Positions 8,891-39,178 of a DNA stretch of 57,128 nucleotides are shown one piece after another. This DNA is from Kordiimonadaceae bacterium (GTDB lineage: Bacteria > Pseudomonadota > Alphaproteobacteria > Sphingomonadales > Emcibacteraceae): contig JABGYD010000048.1 in NCBI GenBank assembly GCA_018675425.1, forward strand, positions 1 to 57,128, read 5' to 3'. The notes beneath the pieces are model-generated. The model made no database searches. It had not been told where the DNA came from and was given only the letters and a program-made list of their open reading frames with translations. The number at the start of each line of letters is the position of its first letter. Position 1 is the stretch's first letter. Both the position numbers and the translations under genes were made by a program.

Positions 8891-9291
8891 GACAGATCAA
8901 AGTTTTTATATTCATTACTATTTTTATTGTTTTTACAGGAAGTACAGGGAGTTCTTCTGGAAATATAAATGGTTTTGTTGATGTGACGGATGGTGACACT
9001 ATACGATTTGGGACGATTAAGATAAGAATATGGGGGCTTGATGCACCGGAGATGAACACTGATGCTGGCAAAAGGTCTAAGGCGGAACTAAGAGCAATTG
9101 TAAGTGGAAAAGAAGTCAATTGTGAACCTGATGGAACTAAGAGCTATGACAGGGTTGTAGCAAAGTGTTTTGTTGACGGCCATGATATAGCTGTCAAAAT
9201 GATAGAGATGGGACTGGCAAAGCCATACTGTAAGTTTTCTAGAAGTTATTATAACGAGGCTGCAATTAAGGGTGGAGTGGATAAATGTTAA
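8887..9291 (+). CDS. Secreted staphylococcal-nuclease-like (thermonuclease) protein
   Basis: 134 residues with an N-terminal signal peptide (MRQIKVFIFITIFIVF) and one SNase-like OB-fold domain: VDVTDGDTIRFGTIKIRIWG, LDAPEMN and SYDRVVAKCFV. These match the Ca2+-binding aspartate and catalytic arginine regions of the family (DGDT; R in IRIWGLDAPE; YxR). It should cut single- and double-stranded nucleic acids outside the cytoplasm. ATG 8887 is preferred over a GTG at 8854, which would put eleven charged residues before the signal peptide and has no well-spaced ribosome site. The 3' end overlaps the deaminase gene by 7 bases, so nuclease and deaminase are likely one operon. Confidence 0.88.
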   Translation: MRQIKVFIFITIFIVFTGSTGSSSGNINGFVDVTDGDTIRFGTIKIRIWGLDAPEMNTDAGKRSKAELRAIVSGKEVNCEPDGTKSYDRVVAKCFVDGHDIAVKMIEMGLAKPYCKFSRSYYNEAAIKGGVDKC

Positions 9292-10811
9292 AATTAATTA
9301 ATATCAGTTTTTTGAATTTGATTACCATACTTACAGTTTTAATTTTAACATCTTGCACTGAACAAGATCAGATAAATACTAAGCTTCTTGATCATTTTAA
9401 AAAATATGATCAGGCAAAATCTCTTATTATTGAACGCAACTATAAGGCTAGCAACCCGATTGAGCGGGCCGATTGGGAATCGCAATTTATTATGAGTGAA
9501 GGCGACGAATTTACGTCCACAGAAATTGATTTTTTAATGGAAAAACAAGAGGTGATCATCGAGAAAAATAGGAAACTCGCTATTGAAAATTCAATTATTG
9601 ATATCGAACCGTTAAGGTCAGATATGGTTGAGCTAGCCAAATTTTGTAAGCAAATTCCGAAGGGTGGTTTATTACATGTTCATCCATATGGACTCTTTAC
9701 TCGAGATGTTGTCACCGAAATTCTTAGAAAATATAATCCAGTGATAGACCCTGAATATTTTATAATGACAGTTCAAAATCAGGGACAAGTTCTTTATGAT
9801 CATGAGATTGATGCCCTAAGATCACTTCCCGTCTCCTCTAATTACCTCTCCATGAGTGAAGCGGAGCAAAGTCTTTTTGTAAACTTTTTCTTTTTACCTA
9901 ATGTTCCTGTATCGCATGATTTCAAAAGATTTGACGCAATATTTGCCTTTGTAATTTGGATGGTTGAAGATGAATTTATTGATGAAAAAATGGAACTTAT
10001 TTATCTCGATTTTCTTGGGCGCGCCGCTGACCATGGGATTAGCTATATTGAATTTACTAATAGCTTTCCCCCCAGTGTTGACAGTATTGAAAAACTAACA
10101 AACTGGTCTATAAAATTTTTCAAAGAAACTGGGGTTGTAGTACGGTGGAATTTGGGGCTACTCCGCTTCCTTCCTGCTGAAATGAATGGTGAAATGATAA
10201 AATCATGGAACCAACTTCTGCTAATTCATCCATCCGATGTTATTGTTGGTATCGATCTTTATGCTATTGAGCGTGGAAACCCTGCCCTTGAAAAAGCACA
10301 AGTCGCATATGGATACCTTAGTGGCTACAATAGTGAGAATCCGGATCATCCACTTAAGATGACTATGCACTCAGGCGAAATGGGGGACCCTCGCAATGCT
10401 CGTGATGCGATGATCATGGGCGTTTCAAGAATTGGCCACGGTGTACTCCTTCAGGAGGATTTAATAACCCTTGAATACGCTCGGAGCCTTAAGGTTGGTG
10501 TTGAGATAAATATTAATAGCAATCATCACCTCAGTGTTCACGATAAATTTAGCTCGCCACACCCATTTTTAAAATTCCTTCGATTGGGCATACCAGTTAG
10601 TCTTTCCACCGATAATGATGGAATTTTTGATACCGATATTTCTAAGGAATGCATAGCTGCAGTTAGCACCACCGATGTTAGTTACGCAGAACTTCAGGCG
10701 ATGAGTTATAATAGTATTAGTACTAGTTTTTCTAAGCAGAAAACCAAGTCTATACTTAAAAATAAACTAGATCAAAGTTTTGCACTATTTGAACAAAAAT
10801 ATCTAAACTAG
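9285..10811 (+). CDS. Lipoprotein adenosine deaminase, ADGF-like
   Basis: 508 residues. A hydrophobic segment ending in the lipobox LTSC (Cys24) indicates a lipid-anchored envelope protein. The metal-dependent deaminase fold is shown by PKGGLLHVHPYG (His131, His133), MTMHSGEMGDP (the family HAGE region), IGHGVLL and LSTDNDG. The PKGGLLH wording is that of the long ADGF/CECR1 deaminases, not cytosolic Add. It likely converts adenosine (or related nucleosides such as methylthioadenosine) to inosine outside the inner membrane. It overlaps the secreted nuclease gene and precedes a purine-type phosphoribosyltransferase, which fits a nucleic-acid scavenging operon. Exact substrate is not determined. 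Confidence 0.88.
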   Translation: MLKLINISFLNLITILTVLILTSCTEQDQINTKLLDHFKKYDQAKSLIIERNYKASNPIERADWESQFIMSEGDEFTSTEIDFLMEKQEVIIEKNRKLAIENSIIDIEPLRSDMVELAKFCKQIPKGGLLHVHPYGLFTRDVVTEILRKYNPVIDPEYFIMTVQNQGQVLYDHEIDALRSLPVSSNYLSMSEAEQSLFVNFFFLPNVPVSHDFKRFDAIFAFVIWMVEDEFIDEKMELIYLDFLGRAADHGISYIEFTNSFPPSVDSIEKLTNWSIKFFKETGVVVRWNLGLLRFLPAEMNGEMIKSWNQLLLIHPSDVIVGIDLYAIERGNPALEKAQVAYGYLSGYNSENPDHPLKMTMHSGEMGDPRNARDAMIMGVSRIGHGVLLQEDLITLEYARSLKVGVEININSNHHLSVHDKFSSPHPFLKFLRLGIPVSLSTDNDGIFDTDISKECIAAVSTTDVSYAELQAMSYNSISTSFSKQKTKSILKNKLDQSFALFEQKYLN

Positions 10812-10845: not shown

Positions 10846-10917
10846 AAAAATTAAATTTTCTTTTTTTATAGTAAACGTTATATTAAAAAAGAAAAAAAAT
10901 GAGTGGGTAAAGCACTA

Positions 10918-11490
10918 ATGAATAAAATATATATTACTGCTGATGAGTTGCTTTCTTCTTCATTAAAACTTGGACAAATGGTTGTAAAGGATGGCTTTCG
11001 GCCAGATTTTATTGTGGGTGTTTGGCGCGGCGGAACGCCTGTTGGGATTGCAGTTCAGGAACTCCTAGATTTTTGTCACATCAAAACTGACCATTTTGCC
11101 ATTCGCACCTCAAGTTATAGGGGAATTGCGAAGCAGGAAGCTAAGGTAAGGGTCTACGGCCTTCATTATCTGATAGACAATATGAACTATGATGATAGTT
11201 TATTAATTGTAGATGATGTGTTTGATAGCGGCCGAAGTGTTCAAGCAATTATAGGTGAGTTAGATATTCATATGCGCAAAAATATGCCAACAGATATTCG
11301 TGTTGGTACTGTTTACTATAAACCGAGTAAAAACCTTACTGAACGTACTCCCAACTATTATATCCATAAAACTGAAGACTGGTTAATTTTTCCCCACGAG
11401 CTTGACGGCCTTAGTGATGAGGAAATACTAGCTTCAAAAAAAGATGCAAAAATGCTCATAGAACTCAGAAAAGAATGTGAGCTAGGTTAG
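10918..11490 (+). CDS. Purine-type phosphoribosyltransferase
   Basis: 190 residues from ATG 10918; a GTG at 10903 would add five residues and neither start has a strong ribosome site. The PRPP-binding motif is clear in SLLIVDDVFDSGRSV (about residues 95-110) and an early GVWRGGTPVG loop matches the PPi loop of HGPRT/xanthine-type enzymes. It would attach a purine base (hypoxanthine, guanine or xanthine) to PRPP in the cytoplasm. Its place after a nuclease and adenosine deaminase, and 4 kb from a methylthio-nucleoside phosphorylase, suggests hypoxanthine recovery. A longer C-terminal tail with the YYIHKTEDWLIFPHE motif is typical of the xanthine/guanine branch. Confidence 0.85.
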   Translation: MNKIYITADELLSSSLKLGQMVVKDGFRPDFIVGVWRGGTPVGIAVQELLDFCHIKTDHFAIRTSSYRGIAKQEAKVRVYGLHYLIDNMNYDDSLLIVDDVFDSGRSVQAIIGELDIHMRKNMPTDIRVGTVYYKPSKNLTERTPNYYIHKTEDWLIFPHELDGLSDEEILASKKDAKMLIELRKECELG

Positions 11491-11535: not shown

Positions 11536-12678
11536 TTATCCTAGAATATCTCCCAGCTCATAGATTGCTCGCTCTATATCACCAATATTATTATATAGAT
11601 GTGGGGCAAAGCGAACATAGTCCTGCCTTTTATGGGCGATTACACCACGGACTTTGAGCTGTTCAAGAATGTAAACTGCATCATGTTTACCCATATGACA
11701 GGTTACAATAGACGTTCGCTCTGATTGTACTTTAGGGGAAACGATTTTGATATTAAGCTGTTGCAGCCCTTCTATCAGTTTATCGGCTAATCCGATATTA
11801 TAATCATAAATACGGTCTATGCCAATATCGTTAAGATACTGCATTGATGTTTCAAGACCTTTGATGCAACCGAAAGCCATAGTGGAGGCTTCAAATTTTT
11901 TTGCAGTATCAGGATATTCAAGTCTTGTGGCTGATAAATCCCACATTTTTGCGTGGCTTCGAAAACCGACGATACCGGGTTCCAACTTATTTTGGAGATG
12001 TGGCGCTAGATACATAACAGCCGCTCCAAAAGGTCCGCAAAGCCATTTATATGATCCGCTTATAATGACGTCTGCTCCTGACCCAGGTCCGTCAATAGGG
12101 ACGGCACCGGCCGACTGAGTGGCGTCCACTATTAGTAACGCCCCATTTTCATGGCAATGATCTGCAAGTAGCTTAAGGTCGTATAGCTGTCCGCTTGTAT
12201 ATTCGGCGTGGGAAATGGAAACTACTGCTGTGTTCTTATCGATGGACTTTATAATTTCACCTGGCTCCGTATAAACACCTTTGCTATGGACGAAGCGTAT
12301 TTCACACCCCGTGTGATGGGATACACGTGTCCATGGAAAAATGGTGCTGGGAAAGACAATATCTGTACTAACCACATTACTTTCGGCACTTGGCATCACT
12401 GCCCAGGCAATAGAAGCTAGAAGTTCCGTATAGCTGCTGCCGCCAGCAATATCATCTTCGCTACAGTTAAAAAGTCGTGCGCCCTCAGCCCGAAGCCCTT
12501 CGAATACGTTATCTTCCGCAAGATCATTAAAATTATTAGAGCCATTTACTCCTACATCGTTATGCCATTTATTTATGGCTTCAATGGATGGTTTAGGCAT
12601 AAGCGCCACATTAGCAGCATTGATATAGGCACTTTTTTTTGTGAGAGGAAAATCATCTGATTTAACGAGCGGGCTCAT
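11536..12678 (-). CDS. Class V aminotransferase-family PLP enzyme
   Basis: 380 residues with a strong ribosome site (AAGGAGG). The PLP-binding lysine is in SGSYKWLCGPFG and the cofactor aspartate in LLIVDATQSAG; SHAEYTSGQLYDL is the usual class V strand-turn. The fold is shared by cysteine desulfurases, kynureninase, serine:pyruvate and isopenicillin-N-epimerase-like enzymes. A cysteine-desulfurase active loop is not evident, so an aminotransferase or lyase acting on a small amino acid is more likely. The start overlaps the stop of the upstream membrane-protein gene (ATGA), so it is co-translated with it and belongs to the sulfur/purine operon reading leftward from 16917. Confidence 0.85.
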   Translation of the reverse strand: MSPLVKSDDFPLTKKSAYINAANVALMPKPSIEAINKWHNDVGVNGSNNFNDLAEDNVFEGLRAEGARLFNCSEDDIAGGSSYTELLASIAWAVMPSAESNVVSTDIVFPSTIFPWTRVSHHTGCEIRFVHSKGVYTEPGEIIKSIDKNTAVVSISHAEYTSGQLYDLKLLADHCHENGALLIVDATQSAGAVPIDGPGSGADVIISGSYKWLCGPFGAAVMYLAPHLQNKLEPGIVGFRSHAKMWDLSATRLEYPDTAKKFEASTMAFGCIKGLETSMQYLNDIGIDRIYDYNIGLADKLIEGLQQLNIKIVSPKVQSERTSIVTCHMGKHDAVYILEQLKVRGVIAHKRQDYVRFAPHLYNNIGDIERAIYELGDILG

Positions 12679-12925: not shown

Positions 12926-13420
12926 TTACTCTAAAGTTGTTATCATTTTTATAAGTTTAGAGCTTCCATCTTTAGTTACGACCTTAAATAGTTTTTCATA
13001 ATCCATCTCGTCGAGCTTCGGTAGGGGAATTTTTGAAAGAAGGGCTGCCAGCTCAGGCGTGCTTGAGCTATGTGCCACAATTAAAAAAGTTCCATCCATA
13101 GCTTTAAGTTTTTTGGAAAAATCTGGAAGGTCTTCGGTGGAAAAAAGAACAATAGGAAGCTCATGGTCCGCAGCCGTTGGCATTGCCGTCATTACCGTTC
13201 GGTATGTTTCGGTGGAGAAAACGGCCTTTATGGGTTCATTTTTAAGCATGTTCATAATATGAGTTGCACGTTTAACACCCTGCTGGGTCAGCACGGGATT
13301 ATCGCCGTCTTGCTTCTCTGCGTGACGAACAACAAAAAAGGTTCCATCAGCAAAAGCATGCCCCGCTAGACTTATAACTACCAATATTACAGTAAAAATT
13401 TTTCTTATTAAAATTTTCAT
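12926..13420 (-). CDS. Exported histidine phosphatase family protein
   Basis: 164 residues with a signal peptide (ILIRKIFTVILVVISLAGHAFA). The catalytic histidine is in FFVVRHAEKQ, with LTQQGVKRA, VFSTETYRT and the second histidine in LIVAHSSSTPEL, the branch-2-like phosphatase pattern. It is short for the family, a single minimal domain, and probably acts in the periplasm on a phosphate ester. The ATG overlaps the upstream PLP-enzyme stop by 4 bases and its ribosome site (GGAG) lies inside that gene. Substrate unknown. Confidence 0.87.
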   Translation of the reverse strand: MKILIRKIFTVILVVISLAGHAFADGTFFVVRHAEKQDGDNPVLTQQGVKRATHIMNMLKNEPIKAVFSTETYRTVMTAMPTAADHELPIVLFSTEDLPDFSKKLKAMDGTFLIVAHSSSTPELAALLSKIPLPKLDEMDYEKLFKVVTKDGSSKLIKMITTLE

Positions 13421-14685
13421 ATTACATTCTCCATTGCTTGTTCCATATCTGTAATCAAGTCCTCTATATTTTCAATTCCGACAGACAATCGAATAATACT
13501 ATCCGTGATGCCCGCTTTTTCTCGTTCTTCAGCCGGTGTCGCACTATGTGTCATACTGGCCGGGTGTTGAATTAAGCTATCTACATTTCCAAGACTAACT
13601 GCGAGGGTAGGAAGTTTGACGGCATTGGCGAAGGCTTTTCCATTTTGGGCTCCGCCCTTCTCGCCGTCAATTAGCTCAAAGCTGAGCATACCACCGTAGC
13701 CATTAATCATCTGTTTAGTGGCTAGATCATGATAAGGATTATTTTTGAGACCTGGGTAATAAACATGTTTTACTTTTTTATTAGCATCAAGCCACTCGGC
13801 AATTTCTTGTGCATTTTTTGCATGGCGTTGCATGCGAATTTCAAAAGTTTTTAGACCTGTATTAATTAGCCATGTATCTTTCGGACTTGGAGCCACCCCG
13901 AGCATTTTATAAGTAAGTCCTACGCCTTGTCCTCCCGGATGCATATAATCTAGATGGGTACTTACAATTGCGCCACCAATCACTTGTCCATGGCCAGAAA
14001 TATACTTAGATGTAGAATGGACTACGACATCACAGCCAAGGGTTAATGGTCGTTGGTGATAAGGTGTGGCGAATGTATTATCAACCATTACCCACATATC
14101 ATATTCATGTGCCACCTTAGCCAAATGAACAAGGTCTATCACCTCAAGGTTTGGATTTGATGGGGTCTCAACAAAAACTAGTTTAGCATTAATATTGGCT
14201 TTGATAGCGGCCTCAAGACCGTCTCGGCTGCAGTCAGAAACCCACACTACATCAATACCAAGCCTTGGAGCCAATTGGGTAAAAAATTTGTGAGTATTAC
14301 CGTAAAGACCCATTTGTACAATTACTTTATCACCTGAGCCAACTGCAGCTAGCACTGCTGCTGAAGTTGCACCCATGCCGCTTGAAGTTACTTTACCCAT
14401 GACAAGTTCCGATGGTTCTTTTTCTGGGTTAGCTTTGATGAGATCTATCCCCTCCATATAAGCGATCTTATTAGCCAGATGATCCATGTTGGGATTATGA
14501 GTGCGTGTGTAAGCATAACCCTTAACTCGGCCAGCAAAAACATCAGCTGCGTCATCCACCGTATCAAAACCGAAGGTTGAGGTTTGATAAATGGGCATCA
14601 AATGTGAATGCTTATCATGACTACCTTCACCTACATGGTTAACGATAGTACCCATGCCGGCATTTTTACCAATTTCCTTACTCAT
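13417..14685 (-). CDS. Gamma-family PLP sulfur enzyme (methionine gamma-lyase or O-acetylhomoserine sulfhydrylase)
   Basis: 422 residues of the Cys/Met metabolism PLP family. Seen: SSGMGATSAAVLAAVGSGD, VFVETPSNPNLEVIDL, VDNTFATPYHQRPL and the cofactor lysine in HSTSKYISGHG; IIRLSVGIENIEDL closes the domain. Family members split C-S bonds of methionine/cystathionine or make methionine from O-acetylhomoserine and a thiol. The operon also encodes a methylthio-nucleoside phosphorylase and an MtnA-like isomerase, so either methanethiol release from methionine or methanethiol recapture is plausible; motif reading cannot separate them. TAAGGACA precedes the ATG. Confidence 0.88.
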   Translation of the reverse strand: MSKEIGKNAGMGTIVNHVGEGSHDKHSHLMPIYQTSTFGFDTVDDAADVFAGRVKGYAYTRTHNPNMDHLANKIAYMEGIDLIKANPEKEPSELVMGKVTSSGMGATSAAVLAAVGSGDKVIVQMGLYGNTHKFFTQLAPRLGIDVVWVSDCSRDGLEAAIKANINAKLVFVETPSNPNLEVIDLVHLAKVAHEYDMWVMVDNTFATPYHQRPLTLGCDVVVHSTSKYISGHGQVIGGAIVSTHLDYMHPGGQGVGLTYKMLGVAPSPKDTWLINTGLKTFEIRMQRHAKNAQEIAEWLDANKKVKHVYYPGLKNNPYHDLATKQMINGYGGMLSFELIDGEKGGAQNGKAFANAVKLPTLAVSLGNVDSLIQHPASMTHSATPAEEREKAGITDSIIRLSVGIENIEDLITDMEQAMENVI

Positions 14686-14728: not shown

Positions 14729-15481
14729 TTATAATAAAATTGGCACTTGGCACTCTTCGTTGGTAGTTGAATGCAATACATCGAGCATTAAGCGTACCAT
14801 GTTTTCTCTAACCTCGTTTATATTATCAGTAGCAAGGGTAATATTTTCTTCGAGCCCTGCGGCTAAATTAATTGGTAAAGCAACGGCACCAAAGCTCATG
14901 CCAAGTTCTGCGGCCAGAAATATCTCGGGGCATGCCGTCATTCCAACTACATCACCCCCAAGAATTTGATACATTTTAATTTCGGCAGGACTCTCAAAAC
15001 GCGGGCCGTTCGTTGCGACATATGTTGCTCCGTCATGAACGTTAATGCCGTGTTTTTTAGCTAGCTCAATAGTTTTGGCAGAAAGAATTGGACAAAATGG
15101 TTTACTCATTTCAACATGGCCTATACCTCCCTTAATAGCATCGAAAAAACTGAACTCACGCCCAGATGTAAAATCAAGAAAATCTCTCATAACCGCAAGT
15201 TCAAGCAGTGGATAATCATTAGTGATAGCACCCACTGCATAGGTCGCCATAATGCGTGTAACGCCAAGATCCTTAAGGGCACGCATGTTTGCACGATAAT
15301 TTACTTTATGAGGTGGCGTGTCGTGTTTGATACCGTGGCGGGTCATGAACACGACGTCCCTATAATTACCCTGACCTACATAGGCTACAGCTTCACCATA
15401 TCGGTTATTAATTAACCTTTCTTCGACTTTAATTTCGGGAAGGTTGTATATGCCGGTGCCACCTAAAATTGCTACGCTCAT
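14729..15481 (-). CDS. mtnP: Methylthio-nucleoside phosphorylase (MTA/MTI phosphorylase, PNP family)
   Basis: 250 residues from ATG 15481 (TAGGAA seven bases upstream); the longer TTG start at 15496 would overlap the previous gene. Family motifs: LGGTGIYNLP, TRHGIKHDTPPHKVNYRAN, TNGPRFESPAEIKMY and MTACPEIFLAAELGM. It splits methylthio-nucleosides with phosphate to a base and 5-methylthioribose-1-phosphate. At the purine-binding segment, where I remember human MTAP having an aspartate pair for adenine, this protein reads LPINLAAG with Asn205; an Asn there is typical of enzymes for 6-oxopurines, so methylthioinosine may be the substrate. That is an inference. The next gene upstream supplies the isomerase for the sugar phosphate product. 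Confidence 0.9.
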   Translation of the reverse strand: MSVAILGGTGIYNLPEIKVEERLINNRYGEAVAYVGQGNYRDVVFMTRHGIKHDTPPHKVNYRANMRALKDLGVTRIMATYAVGAITNDYPLLELAVMRDFLDFTSGREFSFFDAIKGGIGHVEMSKPFCPILSAKTIELAKKHGINVHDGATYVATNGPRFESPAEIKMYQILGGDVVGMTACPEIFLAAELGMSFGAVALPINLAAGLEENITLATDNINEVRENMVRLMLDVLHSTTNEECQVPILL

Positions 15482-15489
15482 TTCTATTC

Positions 15490-16917
15490 CTACCAAGTTT
15501 TATAATTCTTAAGGGTGTAGGGGCTGAGTACCCCGTGGACCGTGATAACACCTGAGACATATTTTGGAGGCGTTATATCGAAGGTCGGGTATCTCGCACC
15601 GATATTATCGGTGGTAGTGGGTGTGCCAAGTACCTGTCTGATTTCGGCAGGGCTACGTTCTTCAATCACCACATCATCTCTAGTTTTTTTTGTATTATCC
15701 CGTCCCCAAGCAAAGGCAAAGTAGGGGATATCGTGATGGTGGGCGGTAATAGCGTTTTGATAGGTGCCAATTTTATTACATACGTGGCCATCCAAGGTTA
15801 TTAAGTCGGCGGCCGTGATATATTTCTGAATATTACCTTCACGCATAATATGGGCTGGCATATTATCAGTAATCAGATTTACATTAATACCTAACTCATT
15901 GATGCAAGGTGCCGTGAGCTTTGCACCTTGGAGGTATGGTCTTGTTTCGGGGACGTAAGCAGTAATATTTTTACCATCACGCTTTGCAAGTGCGAGGCTC
16001 AGTAAAAAGCCTGCTTCACCAAAGCACATGGTCAAAATACCATCGCCATCCTCAATAAGGTTGGCCATTGCTCTTGCCCGAATGGCATAATTATCATAAA
16101 TAGTATTTTTGATGGATTCTATTTTGTTTGCGATGGCTTGGTCAATACTTAATCCTTCGTTGTCCGCTGTTTTCGCGACTTCCAAAATATCGTCAAGGCG
16201 TAGTGCCATAGCTGTGTTGGTTGGTCGTGTCGCAATGAGTTTATCTCTTGCTGATTTAAGGGTGGGAAGACCCTGGCTCGCAACTATGCGCATTGCATTA
16301 GCCGCGGCCATCCAGGGTCCACTGCCTTGTGTAACCATGTCTTTAATAGCTTTTGCGACAGCATCGATACTGTCGCAAGTGATAAAATCTTTGGAAAAAG
16401 GATACTTTCTCCTGTCACCTATAAGCACTTTTCCACCTTCGAAGCGGGAAATATTGTCAGGATTAACTATAAAAGGTAGCAGATCATATATACCTTCTTT
16501 TTGTGCGGGAGATTTTCCCTGGGGTTTTTCAGCTTTAGACCCACCCTGTTCAATCCAAGCCGTAAAGCCACCATCTATATGGCAAAGGTTTTTAAGACCA
16601 ACTTCTTGTGCTGCTTTGGTCGCGAGGGCGCTACGCCAGCCTTTATTACAATAAAATACAAATTTATGATTATTATTAAATATTTTTTTATAGTAAGGGC
16701 TTTGCTTATCAACCCAAAATTCGGTCATACCACGCGGCATATGAAAGGCTCCAGGAATCATGCCTTCCGCACTAATTTCTCGAATATCGCGAAGGTCCAC
16801 AAAGGTCGCTTTAGGATCAGCAAGCATTAATTTTGCTTGATCTACATTGACCGTTTCTATTTGTTGGTTGGCAATATCCACCATTTCTTTGGTTGTTTTT
16901 GACATTTTAGGCACCAT
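15490..16917 (-). CDS. Rhodanese domain fused to MtnA-like methylthioribose-1-phosphate isomerase
   Basis: 475 residues. Residues about 20-127 form a rhodanese domain (VDLRDIREISAEGMIPGA, active loop YCNKGWRS with Cys90, HIDGGFTAW). After a linker (about 128-145), residues 146-475 are an eIF2B-alpha/MtnA isomerase: RPTNTAMALRLD, VPETRPYLQGAKLTA, NKIGTYQNAITAHHHDIPYF, with candidate catalytic Cys298 (ILTMC) and Asp371 (AADLITLDGH). MtnA turns methylthioribose-1-P into methylthioribulose-1-P; rhodanese carries sulfane sulfur on cysteine. Both catalytic sets look intact. The stop lies 9 bases before mtnP. Start could be ATG 16917 or 16905; neither has a strong ribosome site. Confidence 0.88.
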   Translation of the reverse strand: MVPKMSKTTKEMVDIANQQIETVNVDQAKLMLADPKATFVDLRDIREISAEGMIPGAFHMPRGMTEFWVDKQSPYYKKIFNNNHKFVFYCNKGWRSALATKAAQEVGLKNLCHIDGGFTAWIEQGGSKAEKPQGKSPAQKEGIYDLLPFIVNPDNISRFEGGKVLIGDRRKYPFSKDFITCDSIDAVAKAIKDMVTQGSGPWMAAANAMRIVASQGLPTLKSARDKLIATRPTNTAMALRLDDILEVAKTADNEGLSIDQAIANKIESIKNTIYDNYAIRARAMANLIEDGDGILTMCFGEAGFLLSLALAKRDGKNITAYVPETRPYLQGAKLTAPCINELGINVNLITDNMPAHIMREGNIQKYITAADLITLDGHVCNKIGTYQNAITAHHHDIPYFAFAWGRDNTKKTRDDVVIEERSPAEIRQVLGTPTTTDNIGARYPTFDITPPKYVSGVITVHGVLSPYTLKNYKTW

Positions 16918-17001: not shown

Positions 17002-17901
17002 ATGAAAAAAAATTGGCTTATTGCTCTTTTAATAATTCCATTACTTGCACTAATCTACCGCGCTCAAATTAAGGAAGTTAACAGTGGGGACACACAGTTT
17101 TTAGTCGTAGGAAAAACCGCAAATTATAGACAAGATCAAAACTCTTCTTTTAGAGAGATGCTCAACTACCATTTTTTTGCTGAAATATTTGTAAAAGCTG
17201 GTGGAAAAATTACCAATGGAACCTTAAGCAATACATCTATTGATATTATGAATTTTGAAGATCATCCGAGCACACTTGAAACTCACGGTGGCCGTTATAA
17301 TAAAGAAGAAAATTTAAACGCAAGCTATCCTAATGGGGAGTATTTATTTAGATATATAGAAAAAGGTGATCAAGTATTTCATATACCGGTAACACTAACA
17401 AATAAAGATGATGGTCAGACCCGCATACCCCGCCCCCCAACTATAATTTTAAAGCAAGACGGAAATCTGGTCTCACCGGTTGCTATTAATCCAGATAAGG
17501 ACCTTAATATTTCCTGGATACCATTTAGTGAGGGTGGAGTTGATAAAAATGGCTTATTAGATGATCTTATTTTTGCCGTGGTTGGAAACTGTTTAGGTGA
17601 AAAAATATTTCATAGTGGTGTCCCATTTAGCGGTCTTAAGTACCTGACTTATAATGATAACGATGTGATAATAAATAAAGATATTATGGATCCTGGAGGA
17701 TTTTATCAGGTTAGTGTTGAGCACGCAGTTATGGACACTAATTACGTTGGTAATGTGCCAACTATAGCTACCTATGCTGCTACATCATTTCTTGATTTTA
17801 ATACGAGTGGTGAGAAAACAGGAAGACTTAATTGCAAGAATACTCCATTGCAGATGGATAAAGGTCAAACTGACCGGAATAAAGCATCATCAAATAAGTA
17901 A
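17002..17901 (+). CDS. Exported protein of unknown function
   Basis: 299 residues with a clear N-terminal signal sequence (MKKNWLIALLIIPLLALIYR) and no other membrane segment. AAAGGAATAA precedes the ATG. The rest is rich in beta-type sequence (YLFRYIEKGDQVFHIPVTL, FYQVSVEHAVMDTNYVG) with two cysteines (in NCLGEKI and RLNCKNT) that might form a disulfide. I do not recognise a family. It is a monocistronic unit: divergent from the rhodanese-MtnA gene and closed by a bidirectional terminator. Confidence 0.8.
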   Translation: MKKNWLIALLIIPLLALIYRAQIKEVNSGDTQFLVVGKTANYRQDQNSSFREMLNYHFFAEIFVKAGGKITNGTLSNTSIDIMNFEDHPSTLETHGGRYNKEENLNASYPNGEYLFRYIEKGDQVFHIPVTLTNKDDGQTRIPRPPTIILKQDGNLVSPVAINPDKDLNISWIPFSEGGVDKNGLLDDLIFAVVGNCLGEKIFHSGVPFSGLKYLTYNDNDVIINKDIMDPGGFYQVSVEHAVMDTNYVGNVPTIATYAATSFLDFNTSGEKTGRLNCKNTPLQMDKGQTDRNKASSNK

Positions 17902-30414: not shown

Positions 30415-31725
30415 ATGAGTAGGGATGCAACCGTGCTGGATAATGATAAAAAGTTAAAACGGGATATTGGTATATTTGCCACAGGGTTTTTAGTTTTAAA
30501 CGGTGTGATTGGGGCTGGAATTTTTGGGCTTCCAGGCAGGTTGGTTGAACAGGCTGGTATGTTCGGACCCTGGTTAATTATTTTATTCGGCGCTTTCATT
30601 ATTACTGTAGCTTGGACATTTGCATCCATAGCCAGTTATTTCAGCACCACCGGAGGCCCTGTTGCTTATGCCCACCGAGCGTTTGGTCCACTTGTTGGCT
30701 TTCAGACTGGATGGTTGCTATATATAGGCCGGGTTTCTGCTATTGCGGCCAATATTAATGTACTGTTTAACTATGCTGCCTACCTTTGGGAAGGTGCCTC
30801 TGGGGAACTGACCCGAGCCGCGATGTTTTTTATAATTATTGGTGGCCTTACTGCTGTTAATGTAATGGGTATTAAAAAGGCTGTGAAAGCTATTAATGTA
30901 ATTACATTTTTCAAACTCATACCCATACTCGTTTTAGTATTACTAGCCCTGCCGCACCTTACACCGGAAGGTGTTCTTCCATCCGATTTACCTAGCTTCG
31001 ATGACATGAGTGGCCTTGTGTTGTTAATTCTTTATGCATTCGTTGGTTTTGAAGGAGCCCTTGTTACTGCTGGTGAGACTAAAAATCCTAAAAAAACAAT
31101 TCCCCGGGCCCTTATTTGCGGAGTACTTGTTATAACGGCGATTTATTTTTCTGTCGCAATGACCTACGCTAATGTTGTAACAAATGGCGGTGGCGATACA
31201 CCCCTTGTAGATATGGGTGAAATATTAATGGGTCCTATTGGTGGTGTTATTATTATTATTACCGCCATATTTTCTATCTTGGGGAATGCAACTAGCATTG
31301 TAATTGCTGCGCCACGCATGACGTTTGCTATGGCTGAGGAAGGAACCCTACCCAAGTGGTTTGGAAAAGTTCACGAGGAATACCATACACCAGCAAATTC
31401 AATTATCTTTCTTGGCGTGCTTTCGTTTGTATTAGCTATTTCGGGAACATTTATATATTTGGCTATTGCAAGCACTCTAGCTCGAATGATTGCTTATGCA
31501 ATCTGTATGCTATCACTTCCAAATATTCGTAAAAAGGCTGACGCTGAAACGTTAGCTAATGCAACAAAACTTCCTGGTGGATACCTTATTCCCGGGATAG
31601 CCTTTGTGGTATGTCTTTTTGCTATTAGTCAATCTACTATACAATCGTGGCAGTATATGATCAGTTTCATTGCCCTTGGCGGGGTGCTTTATTTTGCCAA
31701 CAAAACAACATTTAAAAGCAACTAG
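30415..31725 (+). CDS. APC family amino-acid permease, paralogue 1
   Basis: 436 residues, about 12 membrane helices. The substrate-binding helix-1 motif is LNGVIGAGIFGLPGRLVEQA; TTGGPVAYAHRAFGPLVGFQ and GFEGALVTAGETKNPKKTIP are the other APC signatures. Imports an amino acid, likely by proton or exchange transport. First of three tandem paralogues with near-parallel sequence; 23 bases before the second. Confidence 0.93.
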   Translation: MSRDATVLDNDKKLKRDIGIFATGFLVLNGVIGAGIFGLPGRLVEQAGMFGPWLIILFGAFIITVAWTFASIASYFSTTGGPVAYAHRAFGPLVGFQTGWLLYIGRVSAIAANINVLFNYAAYLWEGASGELTRAAMFFIIIGGLTAVNVMGIKKAVKAINVITFFKLIPILVLVLLALPHLTPEGVLPSDLPSFDDMSGLVLLILYAFVGFEGALVTAGETKNPKKTIPRALICGVLVITAIYFSVAMTYANVVTNGGGDTPLVDMGEILMGPIGGVIIIITAIFSILGNATSIVIAAPRMTFAMAEEGTLPKWFGKVHEEYHTPANSIIFLGVLSFVLAISGTFIYLAIASTLARMIAYAICMLSLPNIRKKADAETLANATKLPGGYLIPGIAFVVCLFAISQSTIQSWQYMISFIALGGVLYFANKTTFKSN

Positions 31726-31748
31726 TTTATTTTATATAGGAAAATAGT

Positions 31749-33068
31749 GTGAGCACAGAAAATAGTGATACAAAATTAAAACGTGAAATAGGAACACTTG
31801 CAGCGGGGTTTCTTGTTCTGAATGGGATCATTGGTGCCGGTATCTTTGGGTTACCTGGCAGGCTTATGGAAGTTGCGGGTTCATTTAGTCCCTGGCTATT
31901 TATCATGTTTGGAATTTTAATAATAACTGTTGTGTGGTCCTTTGCTGCTATTTCTAGTTATTTTAGCTCTACTGGCGGACCCATAGTATATGTTTCAAAT
32001 GCATTTGGACCCCTAATCGGATTTCAAACTGGGTGGCTATTTTATGTCGGGCGTCTTGCTGCCTTTGCTGCGAATTTAAACCTTTTATTTGACTACGCAG
32101 CCTTTGTTTGGGATGGAGCGTCAGTTTGGTTAATACGTAGTATAATGATTTTTATTGTTATTGGCGGCCTTACAATTATAAATATATTAGGTATTAAAAA
32201 AGCAGTTCAGGCAATTAATGTACTCACATTTTTAAAGCTTGTTCCTATCTTGCTTATGATACTACTCGGACTTCAGTACCTTACTCCTGATAATTTATTA
32301 CCCCCCGAGCTTCCGAAATTCGATGATGCAGGTGCTGTAATACTTCTTATATTCTTTGCTTTCACGGGATTTGAATCAGTTCTTGCTTCTGCGGGGGAAA
32401 CAAAGGATCCTCAAAAATCGATACCTCGTGCCCTCATATCAGTATTTATTGTTGTGACAGTAATATACTTTTTACTTCAACTTGTTTACGTGACCGTAGC
32501 TCCACCTATTAATGATAGTGCTCCGTTAATTGGGTTAGGTACAAGCCTGATTGGACCAATTGGGGGGACAATAATTGTTTTTACCGCTATTTTTTCTATA
32601 CTTGGTAATGTTGCAGGGATTACTATTTTTGGTTCTCGCTCCTCCTTTGCAATGGCGCATTACGGTGCCTTACCAATGTGGTTTGGTAGGGTGCACGAAA
32701 AATATAGTACGCCATCTAATTCTCTACTTTTTCAAGCAGTATTTGTTTATATTTTAGCCATTTCAGGTACCTTTGTTTATTTAGCGATTGCCGGGACCCT
32801 TGCTAGATTAATAGCCTATTCTATTTGTATTCTTGCCCTTCCAAAGGTGATTAAGAATGCAGACCCTGAAACACGTAAAAACGCTACACAAATTCCTGGT
32901 GATAATACGTTTAGTTGGGTGATTGGTTTTATCATTCCTTTTATTGGATTATTGGTTTGTATATTTGCCATGCTTCAGTCGGAGCTAATAAATTGGCAAT
33001 ATTTACTAGGATTTGTTGCTGTGGGAACTTTACTTTACTATATTAATCAATACATTAAGAAGGAATAA
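31749..33068 (+). CDS. APC family amino-acid permease, paralogue 2
   Basis: 439 residues from GTG 31749 with AGGAAAA upstream. Shares the helix-1 motif LNGIIGAGIFGLPGRLMEVA and GFESVLASAGETKDPQKSIP with its neighbours. Differences lie in the binding-region wording (SSTGGPIVYVSNAFGPLIG, FGSRSSFAMAHYGALPMWFG), so its substrate probably differs. Its stop overlaps the start of paralogue 3 (TAATG). Confidence 0.93.
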   Translation: MSTENSDTKLKREIGTLAAGFLVLNGIIGAGIFGLPGRLMEVAGSFSPWLFIMFGILIITVVWSFAAISSYFSSTGGPIVYVSNAFGPLIGFQTGWLFYVGRLAAFAANLNLLFDYAAFVWDGASVWLIRSIMIFIVIGGLTIINILGIKKAVQAINVLTFLKLVPILLMILLGLQYLTPDNLLPPELPKFDDAGAVILLIFFAFTGFESVLASAGETKDPQKSIPRALISVFIVVTVIYFLLQLVYVTVAPPINDSAPLIGLGTSLIGPIGGTIIVFTAIFSILGNVAGITIFGSRSSFAMAHYGALPMWFGRVHEKYSTPSNSLLFQAVFVYILAISGTFVYLAIAGTLARLIAYSICILALPKVIKNADPETRKNATQIPGDNTFSWVIGFIIPFIGLLVCIFAMLQSELINWQYLLGFVAVGTLLYYINQYIKKE

Positions 33069-34360
33069 TGAGGGTCATGGTGCCTAACTTAAAACGAGGT
33101 ATTGGCTTAGTCGCTGCTAGCTTTATTGTTTTAAATGGTATTATTGGTGCTGGAATATTTGCCCTTCCAGGAGAACTCTCTTCGCAAGCGGGGCTTTTAG
33201 GCCCTTGGCTTATTTTACTTTTTGGTGCGTTTATTGCCATGATTGCTTGGTGCTTTGGCGCCCTAGCCAGTTATTTTAAAACATCTGGTGGGCCAGTTAC
33301 TTATGCGTCTCAAGCTTTTGGTCCTTTGGCTGGCTTTCAAGTGGGCTGGCTGCTCTATGTGGGTAGGGCGACTTCTTTGGCTGCTAATACTAATGTGTTA
33401 TTTAATTATGCAGCCTATTTTTGGGAAGGAGTAAATAGCGAGTTTTCAAAGTTAATCTTATTTATTGTGATTATTGGTGGGCTAACGATCGTTAATGTCA
33501 TGGGCATTAAGTCAGCAATGAAGGCTATTAATTTATTTTCTCTTTTAAAGGTACTACCAATATTAGTATTGATTTTGTTTGGTTTACCATATGTTTCACC
33601 AGATGGCTTTTTACCAACTGATTTTCCCGTTATTGATGATTTTGGAACGTTGATATTACTAATTTTGTATGCGTTTGTCGGCTTTGAATGTGTTTTATTC
33701 ACAACGGAAGAAACAAAAAATCCAACGAAAACCTTGCCCAAAGCGCTCATCACAACGGTGGGTGCTATTACTGTAGTTTATTTCTTAATTCAGCTTGTTT
33801 ATATAAATATAGTAACTATTGATAATAACGATGCTCCACTTATTGAACTAGGACGAGTTGTTTTTGGTGAAGCTGGGGTCAGTATTATTATTATTACGGC
33901 ACTATTTTCAATCATGGGGACGGCGACAAGCATTTTATTAACTGCTCCGCGGCTGACTTTTTCTCTGGCCAAAGATGGTTCACTCCCTCAATGGTTTTCA
34001 AGAGTTCATACAAAATATAATACACCTGCAAATTCAATTATATTTCTTGGAGTTTTTGGTTTACTTTTAGGGATAACTGGGACATTTGTTTATTTGGCAG
34101 TCGCAAGTGCACTTGCAAGAATATTAGCCTATATAGTTTGTATTTTATCTTTACCTATTATTAGAAAAAAGGCGGACCAGGCGACGCGAAAAAAAGCTTT
34201 AAAATTACCAGGTGGTTTTTTAATTCCTTGTCTAGCACTTTTGGTTTGTATAGTAGCGGTTGTTTTTTCTCCGCTAAAGTCATGGCTTTATTTATTTGGT
34301 TTCTTATCCCTTGGTGGCCTTCTTTATTTTATAAATAGTAGACATAAAAGTAATGCCTAA
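33068..34360 (+). CDS. APC family amino-acid permease, paralogue 3
   Basis: 430 residues from ATG 33068 with AAGGA upstream; an ATG four codons on is possible. Helix-1 reads LNGIIGAGIFALPGELSSQA (the others have FGLPGRL), and GFECVLFTTEETKNPTKTLP replaces the AGETK of paralogues 1 and 2. Twelve helices. It is translationally coupled to paralogue 2 by a one-base overlap. Ends the permease operon. Confidence 0.93.
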   Translation: MRVMVPNLKRGIGLVAASFIVLNGIIGAGIFALPGELSSQAGLLGPWLILLFGAFIAMIAWCFGALASYFKTSGGPVTYASQAFGPLAGFQVGWLLYVGRATSLAANTNVLFNYAAYFWEGVNSEFSKLILFIVIIGGLTIVNVMGIKSAMKAINLFSLLKVLPILVLILFGLPYVSPDGFLPTDFPVIDDFGTLILLILYAFVGFECVLFTTEETKNPTKTLPKALITTVGAITVVYFLIQLVYINIVTIDNNDAPLIELGRVVFGEAGVSIIIITALFSIMGTATSILLTAPRLTFSLAKDGSLPQWFSRVHTKYNTPANSIIFLGVFGLLLGITGTFVYLAVASALARILAYIVCILSLPIIRKKADQATRKKALKLPGGFLIPCLALLVCIVAVVFSPLKSWLYLFGFLSLGGLLYFINSRHKSNA

Positions 34361-35571: not shown

Positions 35572-38442
35572 ATGACAGTAGAAAATAAAATAAGTGTTAA
35601 ATCTACGACGTGTTACATGTGCGCTTGCCGCTGCGGTATTAATGTTCATCTCAAAGATGGCCGCATTAAGTATATTGAGGGAAATCCTGATCATCCGGTT
35701 AATCGTGGTGTACTGTGCGCTAAAGGTTCAGCAGGTATTATGCAGCATTATTCACCTGCAAGACTTACCGCACCGTTGAAGCGGGTTGGTCCTCGCGGAA
35801 GTGGTGAGTTCGAGGAAATATCTTGGGATGAGGCGATGAGCATTGCTACTGAAAAATTACGGGCAGTTCGTGAAAAAGATCCAAAAAGATTTGCTTTTTT
35901 TACTGGTCGCGATCAAAGCCAGGCATTGACAGGTTGGTTCTCGGCTAAGTTTGGTACGCATAATTATGCAGCCCACGGTGGTTTTTGTTCAGTAAATATG
36001 GCGGCCGCGGGGCTCTACACAATTGGCGGATCGTTTTGGGAGTTTGGCGAGCCAGACTGGGATCGTACAAAATATTTTATGATGTTTGGTGTTGCTGAGG
36101 ATCACGATTCAAATCCCATTAAAAAAGGTATAGGTAAAGTTAAGAGCCGCAAGGATACTAAGTATATTTCGGTAAACCCAATCCAAACTGGCTACGCAGC
36201 TATTGCTGATGAATGGCTTGGTATTCGACCGGGTACTGATGGTTTATTTGTAGGAGCATTAATCGCAGAATTATTAAAATCCGAACAAATAGATTGGGAA
36301 TTTTTAACTCGCTATACTAATAGCCCTTGGCTTGTGATTGATGACCCTGGGTCCGCTAAGCATGGATTATTTGCAAGAGACGAAGCGGAAAAGTCACTCT
36401 GTTATGATCTAGAGAAGGCTGCGGTTACAGAACTCATAGTTGGTAAGTCCAAACCAGCCCTAATAGGAAGCTTTAAATTAAGTGACGGTACAAAAGTCGT
36501 GCCAGCTTTTCAACATATTGTGGAGGAATTTCTGGGCGATGGCTATGAACTCACTAAGGTTGAGAAAGAAACAGGGATTAAAGCAATAGATATTGAACGT
36601 ATCGCTGCAGAAATGGCTGAGGTAGCTTTTAGTGAAGAAATTATAATTGATCAAAAATGGACTGATAGTTATGGTAATGAGCATGACCAGTTTATTGGTC
36701 GCCCTGTTTCATTCCATGCCATGCGCGGCATCGCTGCTCATAAAAATGGTTTCGAAACCTGCCGTATGATCCACCTTTTACAGATGCTTCTTGGCGCAAT
36801 TGATGGACCGGGTTCGTTTTTATATAAACCACCGTTCCCGCGGCCAACCCCTCCACATAAGAAAAATGCTACCGCTTCTGCTGCTCCTGGTGAAGTTTGT
36901 AGGGCTGAGCCACTTGGGTTTCCATCTGGCCCAGAAGATTTAGCTGTGGATGAGAATGGTGAGCCAACCCGGCTTGACAAGGCCTTTTCTTGGGAGTACC
37001 CCCTGGCAATTCATGGTATGATGCATATGTCACTTCATAATGCTTGGGCAGGCGACCCCTACAAAGTTGATGTCTTCATGATGTATATGGCAAATATGGC
37101 TTGGAACTCATCAATGAATGTCAAGAACGCCATAAAGTATATGACTGATAAAGATGCTGATACGGGCGATTATAAAATACCTTATATTATTTATTCCGAC
37201 GCATTTTATTCGGAGACTGTACCCTACGCGGACCTAATTCTTCCGGATACAACTTATCTTGAACGGTGGGACGCGATTTCTATGCTTGACCGACCTATCG
37301 GTACTGCCGAGGCAGCGGCCGACAGCATTCGCCAACCGGTATTAGAACCCGATAGGGATGTCCGCCCGTTTCAAGACGTGGTTCTCGACCTAGGTGCAAG
37401 GCTCGGCCTCCCTGGTATGGTGGATGATGATGGAAATCCGTTATACCCTGGTGGTTATAGTGATTATTTAGTTAACCACGAGCGAGCGCCTGGCGTGGGT
37501 CCTCTATCAGGATGGCGCGGCGAGGATGGTACGAGCCACGGTAAGGGGGCGCCTAATAAAAATCAGCTGAAGAAATATATCGAAAATGGTTGTTACTGGG
37601 AATTTGAGCTCGATAAAGCGGAGCGATATAATCGGTTTGCCAATCAAGCCTACTTGAAGACTGCAACAAAAATGGGCTGGATGGGTTCTCCAGATCCAAT
37701 TGTGCTTAATGTTTATAATGAAATGTTACAAAAATTTCATCTTGCAGCCGACGGTCACGGCGATCATCAGCCGCCAGATCATGCTCGGGCAAGGATCAAA
37801 AAATATTTTAATCCAGTTCCCACTTGGTACCCAGTTCAGGAACATGTGGATAATAACAGTAATGAATATCCACTATCAGCACTGACGCAACGACCTGCAC
37901 ATATGTATCATTCGTGGGGCGGTCAGAACGCTTGGCTCAGACAACTAACGTCACAAAACTATTTATATATCAACAGTAAAACGGCTACTAACCAAGGAAT
38001 TTCTGACCTTGATTGGGTCTGGGTTAGGAGCCCGCATGGTGAAGTTAAGGTGCAAGTCAAATATATGGAAGGTGTAAACCCAGGAACCGTTTGGACATGG
38101 AATGCGATCGGTAAACGACGTGGGGCGTGGGCTCTTGATAAAAATTCGCCTGAGTTTCAAAAAGCATTTTTACTTAATCATGTCATCTCAGAAAACTTGA
38201 CGACTGATGATGGTGAGGTAAGGTCAAACTCTGATCCTGTTACTGGCCAAGGGGCATGGTTTGATGCTCGAGTTAAAATTGAACGTGCAGATGATCAATC
38301 CGAGGACTTAACCTCACCAATGTTTGAGCCAGTAAAATTTTATGATAAACACAAACGCCCTGATGTCCTTAGTTATGGTTTTGATAAAGAACAAACGTTT
38401 GACCAAGCTGAACGATCCCTTGGTAAAAAGGAAGATTTATAA
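35572..38442 (+). CDS. soeA: Sulfite dehydrogenase molybdoprotein subunit SoeA
   Basis: 956 residues of the DMSO-reductase molybdoenzyme family without a Tat signal, so cytoplasmic. The N-terminal [4Fe-4S] ligands are Cys14, Cys17, Cys21 and Cys49 (CYMCACRCG, GVLCAKGS); HGGFCSVNMAA (Cys139) is the probable molybdenum-ligand region. This pattern, the absence of Tat, and the following FeS and DmsC-type anchor genes match SoeABC, which oxidises cytoplasmic sulfite to sulfate and feeds quinone. A role on thiosulfate, polysulfide or formate cannot be fully excluded. Sulfite is the expected end product of sulfur amino acid breakdown by this organism. Confidence 0.85.
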   Translation: MTVENKISVKSTTCYMCACRCGINVHLKDGRIKYIEGNPDHPVNRGVLCAKGSAGIMQHYSPARLTAPLKRVGPRGSGEFEEISWDEAMSIATEKLRAVREKDPKRFAFFTGRDQSQALTGWFSAKFGTHNYAAHGGFCSVNMAAAGLYTIGGSFWEFGEPDWDRTKYFMMFGVAEDHDSNPIKKGIGKVKSRKDTKYISVNPIQTGYAAIADEWLGIRPGTDGLFVGALIAELLKSEQIDWEFLTRYTNSPWLVIDDPGSAKHGLFARDEAEKSLCYDLEKAAVTELIVGKSKPALIGSFKLSDGTKVVPAFQHIVEEFLGDGYELTKVEKETGIKAIDIERIAAEMAEVAFSEEIIIDQKWTDSYGNEHDQFIGRPVSFHAMRGIAAHKNGFETCRMIHLLQMLLGAIDGPGSFLYKPPFPRPTPPHKKNATASAAPGEVCRAEPLGFPSGPEDLAVDENGEPTRLDKAFSWEYPLAIHGMMHMSLHNAWAGDPYKVDVFMMYMANMAWNSSMNVKNAIKYMTDKDADTGDYKIPYIIYSDAFYSETVPYADLILPDTTYLERWDAISMLDRPIGTAEAAADSIRQPVLEPDRDVRPFQDVVLDLGARLGLPGMVDDDGNPLYPGGYSDYLVNHERAPGVGPLSGWRGEDGTSHGKGAPNKNQLKKYIENGCYWEFELDKAERYNRFANQAYLKTATKMGWMGSPDPIVLNVYNEMLQKFHLAADGHGDHQPPDHARARIKKYFNPVPTWYPVQEHVDNNSNEYPLSALTQRPAHMYHSWGGQNAWLRQLTSQNYLYINSKTATNQGISDLDWVWVRSPHGEVKVQVKYMEGVNPGTVWTWNAIGKRRGAWALDKNSPEFQKAFLLNHVISENLTTDDGEVRSNSDPVTGQGAWFDARVKIERADDQSEDLTSPMFEPVKFYDKHKRPDVLSYGFDKEQTFDQAERSLGKKEDL

Positions 38443-39174
38443 ATGACCTGCCTTCCAGAAAAAACAGATAAAAAACTTGGTCTTCTAATTGACCTTAACA
38501 TCTGCGTTGGGTGCCATGCCTGCGCCGTCAGTTGTAAAGAATGGAACACAAGTGGAATAACGGGCCCTATGGAGGACCTAAAGCCATACGGCGATGATCC
38601 GAGTGGGGTTTGGTATAACCGTATTCACAGTTATGAATTTAAAAAAGAAGATGAGATTGATAGAACTGTCTACTTCCCTAAATCCTGCCTCCACTGCGAA
38701 GATGCACCGTGCGTTACTGTCTGCCCAACTGGCGCATCTTTGAAGCGTTCTGAGGATGGAATTGTGCTGGTTAATCCGGATGTTTGCATAGGATGTAAAC
38801 TATGTTCCTGGGCCTGCCCATATGGTGCACGGGAATATGACACTACTGGAGGGGTTATGCAGAAATGTACCCTTTGTGTGGATAAAATTTATGATGAAAC
38901 TGTTTCAGAAGAGCGTCGTGTTCCATCATGTGTATCTACTTGCCCTGCCGGTGCTCGTCATTTTGGTGATTTTGCTGACCCTGAGTCAAATGTTTCGCAA
39001 TTAGCTGCAGAAAATGACGCTCGTGATTTATTTCCTGAAATGGAAACAAAACCGGTTAATCAATATTTACCTCCACGTAAACGGGAACATCACGAAAGTA
39101 AAAAACTCGATCATAAAGTTTCAACTGTTAAAGATGCCTTGGTCAAATGGGCTAAATTGGATTTTACAGGATAG
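38443..39174 (+). CDS. soeB: SoeB iron-sulfur subunit
   Basis: 243 residues, beginning with the base after the soeA stop. Four [4Fe-4S] motif groups are present: CVGCHACAVSC, CLHCEDAPCVTVCP, CIGCKLCSWACP and CTLCVDKI with CVSTCP. It moves electrons from SoeA to the membrane anchor. A charged C-terminal tail (about 40 residues) is specific to this type of subunit. Co-transcribed with soeA and soeC. Confidence 0.9.
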   Translation: MTCLPEKTDKKLGLLIDLNICVGCHACAVSCKEWNTSGITGPMEDLKPYGDDPSGVWYNRIHSYEFKKEDEIDRTVYFPKSCLHCEDAPCVTVCPTGASLKRSEDGIVLVNPDVCIGCKLCSWACPYGAREYDTTGGVMQKCTLCVDKIYDETVSEERRVPSCVSTCPAGARHFGDFADPESNVSQLAAENDARDLFPEMETKPVNQYLPPRKREHHESKKLDHKVSTVKDALVKWAKLDFTG

Positions 39175-39178
39175 AACC

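Follow-up and report, generated by a model that had tools for sequence, protein, structure and literature searches.

The window, a 57,128-nucleotide stretch of genomic DNA from a Kordiimonadaceae bacterium of the family Emcibacteraceae, encodes a rhodanese domain fused to an isomerase that is, judged by its sequence, a distinct paralogue of MtnA rather than a standard MtnA, and is named MtnA2 here. The fusion sits in a gene set of wide distribution, whose probable function is to degrade a sulfur-containing nucleoside left from methionine use. The reading we favor, at roughly even confidence, is that it provides the isomerase of a DHAP-shunt variant for 5′-modified purine nucleosides, most likely MTA via MTI, with the rhodanese probably handling sulfane sulfur or a thiol. 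An isomerase paralogue merged with MtnA by databases is thereby set apart and placed in a conserved multi-phylum gene cluster, its likely next enzyme is named, and a marine route for degrading MTA/MTI, which may release or recapture methanethiol, becomes directly testable. A literature search of partial coverage found no published description of a rhodanese–MtnA fusion. Coordinates are collected in Table 1; the window's own genome is called G000.

Table 1. Features of the fusion gene and of the cluster around it, in window positions
Feature	Positions	Strand	Remarks
Rhodanese–MtnA2 fusion gene	15490-16917	-	475 aa from ATG 16917; probable start ATG 16905
Rhodanese domain, residues 5-128	16534-16905	-	PF00581; nearest structure 2hhg (RPA3614)
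Catalytic Cys90 (CNKGWR), rhodanese	16648-16650	-	
Linker, residues 129-160	16438-16533	-	Junction comparison, alignment
MtnA2 isomerase domain, residues 161-475	15493-16437	-	PF01008; 2yvk superposition; alignment
MtnA2 Cys298	16024-16026	-	
MtnA2 Asp371	15805-15807	-	
Nucleoside phosphorylase, MTAP/MTIP family, 6-oxopurine signature INLAAG	14729-15481	-	250 aa; 8 bp past fusion stop codon
Gamma-family PLP enzyme (Cys_Met_Meta_PP)	13417-14685	-	Nearest methionine gamma-lyases 6lxu/7bqw
Histidine-phosphatase-superfamily protein, signal-like N-terminus	12926-13420	-	Overlaps PLP gene by 4 bp
Purine (hypoxanthine-type) phosphoribosyltransferase	10903-11490	+	Repeated neighbor of MtnA2 clusters
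Adenosine-deaminase-family protein, lipoprotein-like N-terminus	9285-10811	+	Only PF00962 match in the window's genome

Counted from its first ATG, the fused frame comprises 475 codons on the minus strand (16917 to 15490); alignment of relatives places the start of the genus copies at residue 5, which corresponds to ATG 16905. The same frame is open in 12 of the 13 genus genomes listed (Emcibacteraceae/Kordiimonadaceae MAGs, 74–90% identity), among them the single-contig genome G021, and a second group of fusions, 51–54% identical and with the rhodanese loop CAKGWR, occurs in three Robiginitomaculum-type MAGs (L063, L064, and L067). An earlier note on this DNA had described one uninterrupted frame and proposed a search for the same domain order in other genomes; the frame is borne out and the order recurs. 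Two genes split by a missed stop are excluded, since so many genomes carry this frame uninterrupted. That the genomes compared are mostly MAGs would speak for an assembly or annotation artefact, but the presence of the frame in many independently assembled genomes, G021 included, makes this explanation negligible. Both halves are under purifying selection and the fusion is not decaying, with dN/dS of ~0.074 in both halves when the window is compared with G115, its nearest relative (0.054/0.73 and 0.050/0.68).

Pfam matches are found for Rhodanese (PF00581) at residues 25–123 (66.7 bits, cut-off 22.2) and for IF-2B (PF01008) at residues 219–466 (164.9 bits, cut-off 22.4). The AlphaFold2 model of the fusion has a mean pLDDT of 91.8 and a pTM of 0.72, with values below 50 confined to linker residues 127–129. 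Its N-terminal part superposes on 2hhg with a Z score of 21.9 and an rmsd of 1.2 Å over 125 residues (50% identity), and a sequence search against structures returns the same entry for the rhodanese half at E 2.6e-34. This entry, RPA3614, is an alphaproteobacterial rhodanese with the same CxxGxR loop; it is a stand-alone protein (132 residues in the structure), whereas the rhodanese of the fusion is joined to an isomerase. The C..G.R loop is kept with its Cys in all fusions. Cys90 lies in CNKGWR, as the earlier note had placed it, and is invariant across 10 aligned genus copies, as are Cys298 and Asp371; the domain is predicted to be an active single-Cys sulfurtransferase. The C-terminal part of the model aligns with the product complex of B. 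subtilis MtnA (2yvk; Z 39.5, rmsd 2.1 Å, 327 residues), and this fold, together with the Pfam score above cut-off, assigns it to the PF01008 superfamily.

The C-terminal half nevertheless scores 177.7 bits against the TIGR00512 MtnA equivalog model, below the cut-off of 279, whereas a score of 430.9 is reached by the one canonical MtnA of this genus that was tested. Three canonical MtnA proteins were aligned with 20 MtnA2 proteins drawn from Alpha- and Gammaproteobacteria, Acidimicrobiia, Chloroflexota, and other groups. All 23 share the catalytic Cys and Asp, and the Arg, Gln, and Asn-Lys positions are common to MtnA and MtnA2. By contrast, three substrate-site motifs of MtnA are replaced: VRGAP by VTQGxGP (within the motif MVTQGxGP, TQGxGP being present in all 20 MtnA2 sequences), CNAG by CF[G/A]E with a seven-residue deletion (all 20), and NGDVANK by DG[HY]VxNK (all 20; DGHVxNK in the fusion). 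An invariant Glu three residues past the catalytic Cys is gained in MtnA2, and the fusion further differs from MtnA in its N-terminal rhodanese. The complete MtnA-like domain claimed earlier, with Cys298 and Asp371, therefore stands in its fold and catalytic residues but not in its substrate site, and the label "MtnA-type" hides the distinct paralogue. With three motifs lost and the Glu gained, the substrate is perhaps not MTR-1-P; given the changed site, ribose-1-phosphate and 5-deoxyribose-1-phosphate may also be candidates.

Ten other fusion-bearing genomes of the genus carry a canonical MtnA elsewhere in the genome; from G000 it has been lost or is missing from the assembly. At loci L040–L044, from other genus members, canonical MtnA adjoins an amidase gene and has neither aldolase nor MtnB neighbors. 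Rhodanese-free MtnA2 occurs in Gammaproteobacteria, Acidimicrobiia, and Chloroflexota, and makes up the majority of the MtnA2 found outside the genus. A phylum-wide MtnA2 profile search (E ≤ 1e-70) matched only the window's own genome among 398, which suggests that the family is rare; a DNA-pattern scan for the QGSGPW motif used a pattern too short to be informative.

On the minus strand of the window, the fusion is followed in order by the phosphorylase, the PLP enzyme, and the histidine-phosphatase-family protein, with the deaminase and the phosphoribosyltransferase encoded downstream on the plus strand. Across MtnA2 loci the same phosphorylase (42–91% identity) is the usual neighbor and the gamma-family PLP enzyme (61–95%) a frequent one, and class II aldolases, APC permeases, adenosine-deaminase-family proteins, and purine phosphoribosyltransferases also recur. 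Gammaproteobacteria and Chloroflexota also have the pair of MtnA2 and phosphorylase, and in Acidimicrobiia and HyVt-500 MtnA2 is accompanied by the PLP enzyme and a RhaD-like aldolase. The nucleoside or methylthio-purine salvage setting proposed earlier is supported by this context.

Several other neighbors were noted. In the Robiginitomaculum-type MAGs a weaker homolog of the histidine phosphatase is encoded upstream of the fusion, and a protein of ~1200 residues, 5-oxoprolinase-like by eye, lies directly upstream of the fusions (L063 4421–7990, L064 3582–7205, L067 439–4056). An APC permease adjoins the MtnA2 clusters of Gammaproteobacteria and Robiginitomaculum, and the window contains three tandem APC-family permease genes at 30415–34360 (plus strand). 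The divergent neighbor of the fusion (17002–17901, plus strand) is present genus-wide and has no Pfam match; its relatives are ~426 residues long, with an extra C-terminal part, VOC/glyoxalase-like by eye, that is missing in the window copy. A class V aminotransferase (11536–12678) was considered as a cysteine desulfurase feeding the rhodanese and rejected, as no SufS-type active-site Cys motif was seen at its C-terminus; of the loci compared, only the window and L037 have it close to the fusion.

The nearest solved relatives of the phosphorylase are MTAP/MTIP enzymes, and it scores below cut-off on the models for both (TIGR01694 MTAP, 213.3 bits, cut-off 274.85; PRK09136 MTIP, 203.1 bits, cut-off 223). 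The TDY(D/C) segment of MTAP (TDYD/TDFD) is absent and INLAAG stands in its place, aligning with VNPAAG of the same-family P. aeruginosa enzyme 3ozb as an Asn-type N-x-A-A-G purine site. This segment reads IN[LW]A[AS]G in nearly all aligned phosphorylases, with TNLAAG and INWGAG as variants. The entry 3ozb is labelled methylthioadenosine phosphorylase in the structure search; we take it to be an MTI-specific 5′-methylthioinosine phosphorylase. The window enzyme differs from it in being clustered with MtnA2 and the PLP enzyme, and in its PRK09136 score. What had been called a methylthio-nucleoside phosphorylase thus bears a 6-oxopurine rather than an MTAP signature, and a 6-oxopurine substrate fits the neighboring deaminase and phosphoribosyltransferase. 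The deaminase family is present in all nine genus genomes searched, and in seven of them it lies on the fusion's contig, <20 kb away. Degradation of MTA via MTI is a known route in Plasmodium (PMC3885546). The PLP enzyme scores 394.7 bits on the methionine gamma-lyase model (cut-off 549.7) and has LYGN, in which Asn replaces the active-site Cys of LYGC. By analogy with its family and with the O-acetylhomoserine sulfhydrylase that acts in known shunts (PMC5893883), it may use methanethiol.

The step after the isomerase is likely that of a class II aldolase, as such an enzyme is often encoded beside MtnA2 and alternates between two types in the genus. Among PF00596 matches, a RhaD-like aldolase lies inside the operon in G021, G051, G060, and G081, while G000, G032, G045, G048, and G084 have no RhaD-like gene in the operon and a FucA-like aldolase elsewhere; none of the nine has both. 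Perfect exclusion for four and five genomes has a chance of 1/126, a figure to be read with the genomes not being independent. The FucA-like aldolase of G000 (contig C55, 5010–5678) shares 84% identity with the FucA-like protein encoded immediately upstream of MtnA2 at the gammaproteobacterial locus L061. On C55 (L137, 3983–9527) it is accompanied by a 2-hydroxyacid dehydrogenase, an aldo-keto reductase, a xylulokinase-like kinase, and a Na+/H+ antiporter family protein, a gene set also kept in L138 and L141; its conservation suggests that the aldehyde may be reduced, or that a sugar may enter via the kinase.

No match to PF00016 (RuBisCO-like protein) was found in 11 genus genomes, none above cut-off to PF03079 (MtnD, ARD) in nine, and none of the PF00596 proteins examined is an MtnB-type aldolase. 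With the aldolase pattern, these absences point to cleavage into DHAP and an aldehyde as the most likely fate of the isomerase product. The RuBisCO-like (MTA-isoprenoid shunt) and MtnD (universal methionine salvage) branches are accordingly rejected, and a true MtnA feeding a RuBisCO-like protein or an MtnB/C/D route, for which the homology of the isomerase to MtnA speaks, is scarcely credible. Of the two downstream routes raised in the earlier note, the aldolase shunt finds its enzyme on contig C55 and the RuBisCO-like one falls. The absence of mtnB/C/D/K that it reported holds for the operon, but a class II aldolase is encoded elsewhere in the genome and offers a continuation of a pathway it had called unclear.

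In the proposed pathway, the deaminase would convert MTA to MTI, and the phosphorylase would split MTI into hypoxanthine and 5-methylthioribose-1-phosphate. The MtnA2 domain would open the ring via Cys298 and Asp371 to give the ribulose-1-phosphate, from which a class II aldolase, FucA-like and encoded on C55 in G000 but RhaD-like and operon-encoded in some relatives, would form DHAP and a methylthio-aldehyde. The gamma-family PLP enzyme would return the thiol, for example by combining methanethiol with activated homoserine to yield methionine, and the rhodanese attached to the isomerase would probably handle the sulfane sulfur or thiol of the route. We infer the substrate, the PLP reaction, and the activity and role of the rhodanese. 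The salvage context, both catalytic sites, and the aldolase shunt are thus retained from the earlier interpretation; its assignments of isomerase and phosphorylase are revised.

The gene set of the DHAP shunt, a phosphorylase or kinase with an MtnA-type isomerase and a class II aldolase, is encoded in the genome. It is shared with the shunt of E. coli ATCC 25922, Rhodospirillum rubrum, and R. palustris, in which the isomerase product is cleaved to DHAP and an aldehyde (PMC10986504, PMC5893883), and with 5-deoxyribose salvage by isomerase and class II aldolase (PMC6079011). Those routes convert MTA or 5′-deoxyadenosine to DHAP and an aldehyde, and a conversion of this kind is proposed for the window cluster. 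Its differences from the DHAP shunt are the 6-oxopurine-type phosphorylase with a deaminase nearby, the separate isomerase paralogue, the alternation of RhaD-like and FucA-like aldolases, and the linked gamma-family PLP enzyme and rhodanese fusion. Counting against the proposed shunt are the altered motifs and invariant Glu, which bear on MTR-1-P as the substrate, and the coexistence of the fusion with canonical MtnA and with a canonical-type MTAP. The PLP enzyme, moreover, is not adjacent to the Robiginitomaculum or Chloroflexota MtnA2 clusters.

Ordinary inosine catabolism, with MtnA2 as a ribose-1-phosphate isomerase and the aldolase cutting ribulose-1-phosphate to DHAP and glycolaldehyde, would suit the PNP-like signature of the phosphorylase and the nearby deaminase and hypoxanthine-type phosphoribosyltransferase. 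A haloarchaeal Ru1P aldolase catalyzes this cleavage (PMC9700705), the FucA-like aldolase matches the corresponding model NF053831 (158 bits, cut-off 300), and the invariant Glu of CF[G/A]E could bind a 5-OH. The haloarchaeal non-carboxylating pentose bisphosphate pathway likewise joins a nucleoside phosphorylase, an isomerase of the same superfamily, and a FucA-like aldolase yielding DHAP and an aldehyde, but it runs via ribose-1,5-bisphosphate and employs a kinase and a phosphatase, both absent from the window operon. Inosine catabolism is nonetheless unlikely: it leaves the rhodanese and a gamma-family PLP sulfur enzyme conserved in four lineages unexplained, and the phosphorylase has MTAP/MTIP enzymes as its nearest solved relatives. 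The PLP enzyme and rhodanese are equally unexplained by disposal of 5′-deoxyadenosine or 5′-deoxyinosine, a radical-SAM by-product, to DHAP and acetaldehyde. We regard this as improbable, although 5-deoxyribose is known to be processed by just such a trio of phosphorylase or kinase, MtnA paralogue, and class II aldolase (PMC6079011), and there the MtnA paralogues also coexist with true MtnA. An unrecognised sulfur-salvage route is quite unlikely as well; there, the twice-fused rhodanese would take persulfide sulfur from a 5-thio-pentose phosphate or its cleavage product, sulfur rather than methanethiol would be recovered, and the substrate would be a 5′-thio 6-oxopurine nucleoside beyond the range of classical MtnA.

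The history of the fusion bears on the role of the rhodanese. In the MtnA2 tree, the fusions of Emcibacteraceae fall with unfused gammaproteobacterial MtnA2, separately from the Robiginitomaculum fusions, and monophyly of all fused forms is rejected (p-AU 0.010). In the rhodanese tree, which has long branches, the domains of Emcibacteraceae cluster with stand-alone proteins of Rhodobiaceae, separately from the other fusions, but a single fused clade is not rejected (p-AU 0.086), so that this tree alone permits one fusion. The junctions differ: the second half of the window linker, KSPAQKEGIYDLLPF, matches unfused gammaproteobacterial MtnA2 at its N-terminus; the Emcibacteraceae linker end, KSPAxKEGIYDLLPF, resembles gammaproteobacterial CSPAEQEGVYELLPF; and the Robiginitomaculum-type junction, FYTLSDIENVLPHIL, resembles Chloroflexota MFQISDIDHLLPFIL. 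Each junction thus retains the N-terminus of its nearest unfused MtnA2 relatives. Trees and junctions together favor two independent rhodanese fusions, with one fusion followed by several losses a possible alternative. Repeated fusion hints that the sulfur-carrying and isomerase activities belong together, and gives a concrete reason to ask whether isomerisation of the sugar and handling of sulfur are physically linked.

The main rival on this point keeps the same pathway and makes the rhodanese a passenger, the general sulfurtransferase of its family in the cell, joined to the isomerase for the sake of co-expression or stability but not mechanistically linked to it. The family is common: 130 genomes of the class match at E ≤ 1e-30, mostly with stand-alone proteins, whose neighborhoods contain no conserved partner and hence no conserved pathway link. 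Apart from the fusion, no second match to the family was found in G000. A linked rhodanese is missing from most genomes with unfused MtnA2; 11 of 14 have a stand-alone relative at E ≤ 1e-10 and three have none, and this co-occurrence is weak evidence, given that the family is generally common and lacks conserved neighbors. That one type of rhodanese should have been joined twice, apparently independently, to one rare isomerase paralogue would, however, be an unlikely outcome for a random passenger, as judged among MtnA2 fusions, and we hold the passenger reading to be somewhat unlikely. We favor a rhodanese that would handle a thiol or sulfane sulfur from the shunt, and a possible coupling of isomerisation to sulfur handling, as the earlier note had suggested, is helped by the evidence for two fusions.

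Two further loci were noted. In another genus of the family (L048, 7236–12444, and L047), a canonical-type MtnA lies beside a purine nucleoside phosphorylase, a Na+-dependent nucleoside transporter, and apparently split transketolase genes; together these may make up a separate route for nucleoside ribose via an MtnA homolog. In the window, a molybdopterin oxidoreductase (956 aa), a 4Fe-4S protein, and a DmsC-type anchor are encoded in a row at 35572–40081 (plus strand). The nearest NCBIfam models are of thiosulfate reductase and DMSO-reductase types, far below cut-off, and the layout resembles what we take to be that of a SoeABC-type sulfite dehydrogenase.
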